DNA from: a virus
DNA: 23,096 bases
Reading direction: 5' to 3' (one strand)
IMG/VR virus record: IMGVR_UViG_3300009156_000087
Location: 1-23,096 of that record
Under the pieces are notes generated by a model that was not told where the DNA came from, ran no database searches, and was given only the letters and a program-made list of their open reading frames with translations. Made by a program: the position numbers and the translations under genes. Numbering within the stretch: position 1 is the first letter of the stretch; every line of letters starts with the position of its first letter. Positions 16,247 to 17,341 of the stretch are shown here, piece by piece.

Positions 16247-16319
16247 TCCCCCGGCCGCGATTCGAACGCGGACACATCCAGTTAGAAGCTGGGTGCTCTG
16301 TCCGTTGAGCTACCGGGGG
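16247..16319 (-). tRNA. tRNA-Arg (TCT)
   Basis: Anticodon loop CTTCTAA, perfect CCCCCGG/CCGGGGG acceptor, A73 followed by an encoded CCA. One 27-43 mismatch. Confidence 0.9.
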
Positions 16320-16323
16320 TTGA

Positions 16324-16395
16324 GGGGCACGCCAGGGGTCGAACCTGGATCTTCGGTTCCGCCGAATGCTCTGCCTTTTGAGCTACGTACGTCCC
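16324..16395 (-). pseudogene. Defective tRNA with a 5-nt anticodon loop
   Basis: The T-arm (CCAGG/CCTGG) and D-arm (GCTC/GAGC) are sound. The anticodon stem TTCGG/CCGAA encloses only CGGAA, the variable loop has 3 nt, and the acceptor GGGACG/CGTGCCC needs a bulge. A two-base loss from a CTCGGAA loop (Pro CGG) would explain the loop; that is a guess. Confidence 0.65.
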
Positions 16396-16400
16396 ATGGG

Positions 16401-16449
16401 GCGACGGTACGGTCACCGGCCTGCACGTGAGCATGGACCGTACCGCCGC
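16401..16449 (-). other. Spacer hairpin, 14 bp with one G.U in minus-strand RNA
   Basis: Minus-strand arms GCGGCGGTACGGTC and GACCGTACCGTCGC pair at all 14 positions with one internal G.U; the plus strand has A/C there. Loop of 21 nt. Second-longest stem in the array. Confidence 0.55.
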
Positions 16450-16479
16450 TGCGGGGTGATCGGCATGACACACCCAGCG

Positions 16480-16551
16480 TCCCCCTGACAGGAGTCGAAC
16501 CTGCACCCTACCGCTCCGTAGGCGGTCGCTCTTCCATTGAGCTTCAGAGGG
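16480..16551 (-). tRNA. tRNA-Arg (ACG)
   Basis: Anticodon loop CTACGGA, ACCGC/GCGGT stem, CCCTCTG/CAGGGGG acceptor, A73. A34 would need deamination to inosine by host TadA to read all CGN partners. Confidence 0.92.
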
Positions 16552-16555
16552 AAGT

Positions 16556-16651
16556 GGAAACACAGGCTACCGCTGTTCGGCGGCCGACGCGGACTTTATC
16601 TCCCGAGCGACTTGCCGCCGTCGCTATTCGGGTCTAGTGGCCTGTGTTTCC
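16556..16651 (-). ncRNA. Structured spacer RNA, 12-bp closing stem and two hairpins
   Basis: GGAAACACAGGC and GCCTGTGTTTCC pair perfectly (14 bp if one bulged base is allowed), closing a CCGC/GCGG hairpin and a CCCGA-GCGAC...GTCGC-TCGGG hairpin. The three-way-junction plan is the same as at 12216-12309, with no sequence similarity. It fills the spacer between tRNA-Ala (TGC) and tRNA-Arg (ACG). Confidence 0.55.
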
Positions 16652-16676
16652 CACGCCAGGCATGCCTTGGCGCTTG

Positions 16677-16749
16677 TGGAGAGGAGGGGACTCGAACCCC
16701 TAACCTGCGGTTTGCAGGACCGCTGCTCTTCCAGTTGAGCTACAACCCC
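16677..16749 (-). tRNA. tRNA-Ala (TGC), with C33
   Basis: Anticodon loop CCTGCAA, GCGGT/ACCGC stem, G3.U70 alanine identity pair, A73. Position 33 is C and acceptor pairs 5-68 and 6-67 are mismatched. Confidence 0.8.
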
Positions 16750-16754
16750 AAGAC

Positions 16755-16787
16755 CCTGATTGTTGACAGCTCCATCCGACAATCAGG
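16755..16787 (-). other. Spacer hairpin, 9 bp
   Basis: CCTGATTGT and ACAATCAGG pair across 15 nt between tRNA-Ala (GGC) and tRNA-Ala (TGC); the next outer pair is C/A on the plus strand and U.G on the minus strand. Confidence 0.5.
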
Positions 16788-16828
16788 AAACGGTGCGCGT
16801 AGGCCAGTGCGGGCGGGTGGAACTGCTG

Positions 16829-16901
16829 TGGACCAGCCGGGATTCGAACCCGGAACCTTCGCCCTGCCAGGGCGATGCCCGACCTGTCGAGCTGCAAGCC
16901 C
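16829..16901 (-). tRNA. tRNA-Ala (GGC)
   Basis: Anticodon loop CTGGCAG, TCGCC/GGCGA stem, G3.U70 identity pair, A73; one acceptor mismatch at 6-67. Confidence 0.92.
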
Positions 16902-16915
16902 AAAGCCACACGTTC

Positions 16916-16956
16916 CCCAGGACGGACGTGGCCTCCGTAGTGTCCATGCGCCTGGG
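16916..16956 (-). other. Spacer hairpins between tRNA-Pro and tRNA-Ala
   Basis: CCCAGG...CCTGGG encloses ACGGA-CGTGGCC-TCCGT; a separate CGTCC...GGACG stem (16961-16978) follows next to tRNA-Pro. Confidence 0.4.
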
Positions 16957-16981
16957 CTGACCGTCCCCCCTTAAGGACGAG

Positions 16982-17055
16982 TCTGGATGGAGAGATTCGA
17001 ACTCCCGATCGCCTGCTCCCAAAGCAGGTGCCCTACCAAGCTGGGCCACATCCAG
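16982..17055 (-). tRNA. tRNA-Pro (TGG)
   Basis: Anticodon loop TTTGGGA, CCTGC/GCAGG stem, perfect CTGGATG/CATCCAG acceptor, A73. Confidence 0.93.
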
Positions 17056-17062
17056 ATTTGGC

Positions 17063-17094
17063 GCCGGGAGCCTCCTACCCAAGAGGCCCCCGGC
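17063..17094 (-). other. Spacer hairpin, 12 bp with one G.U in minus-strand RNA
   Basis: Minus-strand GCCGGGGGCCTC pairs fully with GAGGCTCCCGGC with one internal G.U; the plus strand has A/C. It fills the spacer between tRNA-Pro and the 8-nt-loop tRNA. Confidence 0.5.
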
Positions 17095-17103
17095 TATATG
17101 TGT

Positions 17104-17176
17104 TTTCAACTGCAGGACTCGAACCTGCACATTTGGTTTTCGACGACCAATGCCCTACCGATTGGGCTAAGTTGGT
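17104..17176 (-). tRNA. Atypical tRNA with an 8-nt anticodon loop
   Basis: D-arm (GCCC/GGGC), T-arm (GCAGG/CCTGC) and anticodon stem (TTGGT/ACCAA) form, but the loop is CGTCGAAA, eight bases, and acceptor pairs 1-72 and 2-71 are mismatched. Possible anticodons are TCG (Arg), CGA (Ser) or GTC (Asp). It is either decaying or a frameshifting tRNA. Confidence 0.6.
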
Positions 17177-17220
17177 TCCTTCATGCTCGGCGTCCTACCG
17201 CCACTGGGTTACAGGTCACG

Positions 17221-17293
17221 TCTCCATGCGCTGCTGCTCTACCGTTGAGCTACCGCCCCATGGATTGGAGGGGCGGGAGGGAGTCGAACCCCC
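17221..17293 (-). tRNA. Apparently circularly permuted tRNA-like gene
   Basis: On the minus strand the 3' half comes first: T-arm (GGGGG, TTCGACT, CCCTC), acceptor strand CCGCCCC, then T and CCA. After ATCCAT comes the 5' half: GGGGCGG, TA, a perfect D-arm (GCTC-AACGGTA-GAGC), A and GCAGC. The two acceptor strands are perfectly complementary, and neither has another partner nearby. GCAGC can pair with GTTGC (17313-17317) just upstream, leaving a 19-nt variable region. Two truncated tRNAs are the alternative. Confidence 0.5.
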
Positions 17294-17341
17294 AACCACA
17301 AGTGCCAAGCCTGCAACAACTTCGATGTAGGTTCCGGCAAG

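Follow-up and report, generated by a model that had tools for sequence, protein, structure and literature searches.

A circularly permuted tRNA-like RNA encoded behind DUF7873 genes in phages and bacteria

Introduction

Does a phage tRNA array contain a tRNA gene whose two halves are encoded in reversed order, and if not, what is the element that resembles one? The question is raised by a 23-kb virus fragment from IMG/VR (record IMGVR_UViG_3300009156_000087, 23,096 nucleotides; the window, that is, the whole stretch analysed), in which minus-strand positions 17293-17236 encode a T-arm, an acceptor 3′ strand, UCCA, an acceptor 5′ strand and a D-arm, i.e., the parts of a tRNA in circularly permuted order. 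An initial annotation took this element for a permuted tRNA gene whose product would be joined into a tRNA. A motif of this kind does not constitute evidence of a permuted tRNA gene, and the YrlA Y RNAs already provide a case of permuted tRNA topology that lacks tRNA function (PMC11472068, PMC8394870). Here, we report that the element is very likely the second of two modules (module 2) in a structured noncoding RNA genetically linked to DUF7873 in phages and bacteria. A permuted tRNA gene serving translation is a very improbable reading.

Structure and conservation of the permuted element

The sequence proved to be as the initial annotation had described it, with coordinates right to about 1 nucleotide (nt). 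On the minus strand, a T-stem GGGGG/CCCTC with the loop TTCGACT (17293-17277) is followed by the acceptor 3′ strand CCGCCCC (17276-17270), a closing loop TCCAATCCAT containing the UCCA (17269-17260), the acceptor 5′ strand GGGGCGG (17259-17253), the dinucleotide TA and the D-arm GCTC-AACGGTA-GAGC (17250-17236). All seven acceptor positions are paired (7/7 in a strict scan for the permuted order), and this tRNA-like core of module 2 (17236..17293) is supported by the strict scan, by compensatory changes and by a covariance model (CM) match. The outer ends of the element also pair with each other, again on the minus strand. They form an inner helix between GTTGCAGG (17310..17317) and CCTGTAAC (17208..17215) and an outer helix between CCTAC (17327..17331) and GTAGG (17194..17198), which are split by an internal loop with AUCGA after the 5′ strand of the outer helix (17326-17322) and CCAGTGGCG on the 3′ side (17207-17199), where it stands in place of the usual UUAAACG. 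The element proper spans about 17341-17188, or about 17461-17188 when a remnant of module 1 is included; the span of 16250-17330 assigned initially also takes in ordinary tRNA genes. A full-length match to covariance model R1 was obtained at 17188-17341 (90.8 bits, model 1-149/149), the window being one of the 29 training rows of that model. Neither ARAGORN nor the Rfam tRNA model called the element as a tRNA.

The initial annotation had pointed to related phages as the place to look for the same inverted order. As it turned out, the element is found at the corresponding position in two relatives, L001 and L003, whose terminases show 93% and 86% identity to that of the window. The acceptor stem reads GGGGCGG/CCGCCCC in the window and in L001 versus GGGCCGC/GCGGCCC in L003, so that its pairing is kept by double changes, and the T-stem of L003 is CCGGG/CCTGG. 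Both sides have changed in the inner helix (GTTGCAGG/CCTGTAAC in the window versus ACCACAGG/TCTGTGGT in L003) as well as in the outer helix (CCTAC/GTAGG versus ACCGC/GCGGT). Two ordinary neighbouring tRNAs are ruled out, since the permuted pairing is retained in the relatives. Furthermore, L001 and L003 carry a second permuted module upstream. The corresponding region of the window (17341..17461, minus strand) retains a hairpin CCCCGG..CCGGGG with the GAGCACAAGCUGAA and GCUCCAAGCUGAAUUCAG flanks; compared with the two relatives, it is devoid of T-arm, acceptor and D-arm, and it gave no core match by the strict scan or the CM. Module 1 of the window copy has lost its tRNA-like part.

More members of the window's class of elements, designated type B, were found by a pattern scan. 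When 29 diverse module 2 sequences were submitted to RNAalifold alone, the outer helix, the inner helix and the T-, acceptor and D-stems were all recovered, and double compensatory changes were present in 30 of 30 pairs. Module 2 cells were paired at 94.7%, versus 65.3% upon shuffling and 41-45% upon sliding, where the counted structure, being RNAalifold's own from the same alignment, is favoured in the slide control; covariation amounted to 0.799 versus 0.234. For the core of module 1, double changes were seen in 15 of 16 pairs. In a control run of the strict scan, 948,379 bases on the minus strand of DUF7873 loci yielded 0 matches. The internal-loop motifs of module 2 are AUCRA (90/102 sequences) and UUAAAYG (68/102). 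The permuted element did not arise by chance, because it is conserved with compensatory changes. A complete RNA has two modules in tandem, and the element usually takes this form, with the modules about 150 nt apart.

Linkage to DUF7873

Directly upstream of the RNA, on the same strand, lies a DUF7873 gene (17472..18251, minus strand; 259 amino acids; Pfam PF25283, E=7e-77), whose product is the probable protein partner. DUF7873 is encoded in all 12 type B records tested. Of 72 distinct viral DUF7873 loci, 64 contain one or more strict modules in the first 900 nt downstream, two modules being present in 33; that interval accounts for 97 modules, versus 4 elsewhere on the same strand and 0 on the other strand. 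In the Streptomyces group, at least one strict module was found in 78 of 80 loci and two, 143-172 nt apart, in 61; for the remaining two loci (L296 and L323), module 2 was recovered by the covariance model. Loci of named phages and of Streptomyces and Nonomuraea gave a strict module in 12/14, L160 being counted though its module is far from the gene. The acceptor loop is long (28-29 nt) in L163 and L164, and module 2 of Ziko was found by the covariance model. We also examined 247 actinobacterial genomes: DUF7873 is present in six, and a full-length module 2 occurs in exactly the same six, 200-300 nt downstream of the gene on the same strand; one of these six had been selected as the centre, and the genomes are not phylogenetically independent. 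Three more matches covered partial cores, and one of these fell among ordinary tandem tRNAs. Across the 80 bacterial DUF7873 loci, conservation of any other neighbouring gene was limited to 14 loci at most.

The protein is conserved along its length, and its AlphaFold2 model is of high confidence (pLDDT 91.5). A Foldseek search of the model against PDB gave no match at E <= 0.001, and that against BFVD gave one match below 0.001, with a TM value of about 0.2. There was no match for DUF7873 in PHROGs, NCBIfam or PADLOC, and our literature search found no paper naming it; neither the protein nor the linked RNA is annotated in the records examined, and no Rfam family was found for the RNA. Sequence searches returned at least 447 bacterial and at least 153 viral matches. 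The gene is carried by phages of Gordonia, Arthrobacter, Rhodococcus, Rhizobium, Pseudanabaena, Vibrio and others, as well as by Streptomyces and Nonomuraea replicons. Related loci were found by alignment-based searches, whereas the single window protein used as a query found none. In one relative (L020, from G015, 7030-7779), frameshifts disrupt DUF7873 next to an intact RNA, which may be an assembly error or decay.

Could the RNA simply be a cis-acting element in the 3′ untranslated region of the DUF7873 mRNA, for example an RNase-processed element for stability or autoregulation? Its constant position, immediately after the stop codon and on the strand of the gene, is what such an element would show. 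Two elaborate tRNA mimics with long stems are, however, more than a simple 3′ element requires, and we consider this explanation unlikely, even if it is the best of the alternatives. A leader attenuator is impossible because the RNA sits 3′ of the gene.

Comparison with known RNAs

YrlA is a tRNA mimic, the solved structure of which superposes on tRNA through circular permutation (PMC11472068); the basal stem of YrlA is the binding site of a Ro60 homologue, and PNPase binds the head, which is also a substrate of the modifying enzymes DusA and TruB (PMC8394870). Phage Ro60 and YrlA were noted earlier (PMC7765460). The permuted domain with T-, D- and acceptor-like arms by which YrlA is recognized is present in the window element, and the likeness to YrlA (RF02553; Salmonella structure 6CU1) extends to the closed acceptor end, to a basal stem at the position of the anticodon stem and to the occurrence of YrlA near phage Ro60 genes. 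Earlier studies (Chen 2014; Sim and Wolin 2018; Wang 2018) reportedly found Y RNAs near Ro60 in many bacteria and phages. At this very locus, other relatives of the window have a Ro60 gene (TROVE plus VWA) beside the terminase, followed by at least one Y RNA of YrlA-like layout with GUGCGNA/UUGAWC motifs (Ro60 loci L004 3007-4599 and L005 1863-3434, both on the minus strand, and L014, L018, L019, L022 and L024).

These features would fit a true YrlA Y RNA acting with Ro60, which we nevertheless regard as quite improbable. Rfam YrlA is the best non-tRNA match (window, 35.6 bits, E 2.9e-6; L001 in full length, 39.2; L003, 32.3), but none of the three reaches the gathering score of 69 bits, and the score alone is uninformative as to YrlA identity because ordinary tandem tRNAs also reach about 32 bits (32 at L003 2316-2425). 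The motifs separate the two groups: TACTTC is found in 18/19 Ro60-linked elements versus 0/102 module 2 sequences and UUGAWCU in 13/19 versus 1/102, whereas AUCRA and UUAAAYG occur in 0/19 of the Ro60-linked set. No TROVE match above the cut-off was seen in the type B records scanned, which may be fragments, and neither the window nor G001 has a Ro60 (TROVE). Moreover, L014 and L019 carry Ro60 with its own Y RNAs and the DUF7873 system side by side. The window's class thus differs from YrlA in being linked to DUF7873 rather than Ro60, in usually having two modules per RNA, in its internal-loop motifs and in scoring below the Rfam cut-off. Similarly, the Deinococcus Y RNA (RF01053) and the Ro60-linked phage Y RNAs (L004, L005, L024, L026 and L029) resemble the DUF7873-linked set in their two-helix basal stem with a conserved internal loop, and the phage ones also in their tRNA-array context, but they have GUGCGA/UUGAWC motifs and a Ro60 gene, which the latter set lacks.

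L005 has a weak Deinococcus Y RNA match at 277-367, and L004 has a Y-RNA-like stem (1870-1960, minus strand; CCCTCAG GUGCGUU ... UUUGAUCU CTGAGGG) around a tRNA-like domain in normal order. A VWA protein encoded in the tRNA array of the window (9816-10832, minus strand) was rejected as Ro60, with a weak Pfam VWA match (E 0.004) and no TROVE.

Less probable still, and a very doubtful reading by now, is a permuted tRNA gene for translation, in which RNase P would cut before GGGG, the CCA end would be set free, and ligation of the outer ends, perhaps through the phage RNA ligase, would yield a circular or two-piece tRNA. As in the permuted tRNA genes of red algae and archaea, the 3′ half is encoded before the 5′ half; the T- and D-arms and the acceptor are without flaw, UCCA comes after the acceptor both in the window and in close relatives, and the array contains an RNA ligase gene (13026..13865, minus strand; Pfam PF09414). 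Those genes, however, have an anticodon and mature into tRNA, whereas no anticodon loop exists across more than 100 homologues of the DUF7873-linked RNA. The anticodon arm proposed initially, GCAGC with GTTGC, found no support; what is conserved there is the inner and the outer helix, the position of the anticodon stem running on into a long two-helix basal stem. Each acceptor end is capped by a loop that measures 6-30 nt and is UUCG-like in some cases, and just 20/102 module 2 and 49/106 module 1 sequences have CCA after position 73. Since CCA proved clade-specific, the idea of a CCA end for charging was dropped. As for the ligase, its gene lies about 3.4 kb from an element that is tied to DUF7873, nothing indicates that it acts on this element, and the RNA also occurs in Streptomyces beside DUF7873, with no ligase conserved nearby in the 80 bacterial loci.

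Finally, a permuted two-piece tmRNA (RF04321, RF01850, RF01851), which has its acceptor strands in the same order and gave weak Rfam matches (cyano_tmRNA, 20.3 bits; tmRNA_permuted, 17.7 bits), is hardly credible, as these scores are far under the cut-offs of 70 and 47, the D-arm is intact and canonical whereas that of tmRNA is degenerate, no tag reading frame was seen by eye, and the phage GodonK has a normal tmRNA too.

Other features of the array

Between two tRNA genes of the window there is a strong hairpin, GCCGGGGGCCUCUUGGGUAGGAGGCUCCCGGC (17060-17100, minus strand), which is kept in L001 and L003. A long imperfect palindrome, GGAAACACAGGCC ... GGUAGCCUGUGUUUCC, surrounds a GC-rich stretch between tRNA genes at 16550-16690 (minus strand) and may be another structured RNA. 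Rfam detected tRNA-like genes at 7852-7909, 12943-13017 and 17104-17176 (minus strand) that ARAGORN missed or whose anticodon is undefined; the acceptor end of the one at 17104 is mismatched. In Gordonia phage GodonK (L156 300-828), Rfam reports a tmRNA (90 bits) where the record annotates tRNA-His.

Discussion

Structure, conservation and genetic linkage form the observed basis for assigning the window element to a DUF7873-linked RNA. The RNA probably serves as a tRNA mimic together with DUF7873 and not in translation, because it is encoded right behind DUF7873 in many phages and in Streptomyces.

Several points weigh against this interpretation. Minimum free energy folds of the whole RNA are unremarkable (z of -1.5 in the window and of -0.86 in L250) and fail to reproduce the full module 2 stem. 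The window copy is itself atypical, as its module 1 has degenerated and it lacks UUAAACG on the 3′ side. Some phage loci (L160, L163 and L164) have weak, distant or no matches, and the sole match of L160, about 2 kb from the gene, may be unrelated. The linkage counts overstate the number of independent events, because the CM and the scanner were built after the DUF7873 neighbours had been seen and many sampled genomes are related Streptomyces. DUF7873 is a protein without a known fold or RNA-binding domain. Lastly, expression of the RNA, its binding by DUF7873 and its function as a tRNA mimic are putative.

How might the pair work? In each module, a loop closes the acceptor end, and the D-arm, acceptor stem and T-arm have the permuted arrangement; in module 2 the position of the anticodon stem extends into a basal stem of two helices split by the internal loop AUCRA / UUAAACG, a layout shared with YrlA. 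By analogy with YrlA, DUF7873 would bind the stem or the flanks of the RNA, and the heads, mimicking tRNA, would recruit or divert tRNA-handling factors, which for YrlA are PNPase, TruB and DusA. An RNA-protein pair of DUF7873 and a YrlA-like tRNA-mimic RNA is the reading we favour; the mechanism itself we put forward as a tentative proposal that falls somewhat short of an even chance.

With the same reserve, DUF7873 and its tandem permuted tRNA-mimic RNA may represent a second, Ro60-independent class of RNA-scaffolded machine, used by actinobacterial, cyanobacterial and proteobacterial phages and kept by Streptomyces, with a protein fold that has no match among solved structures. Such a machine could redirect host enzymes of tRNA handling or RNA decay, or counter defences that target tRNA.

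Taken together, these results point to a widespread putative RNA-protein pair hitherto undescribed in the literature searched. They suggest that, besides the Ro60-bound Y RNAs in which it is known, permuted tRNA mimicry exists in a second lineage with another gene partner. The pair would offer a concrete entry point to the question of why large phages carry tRNA-like RNAs within their tRNA arrays, and DUF7873 gains a first testable role.
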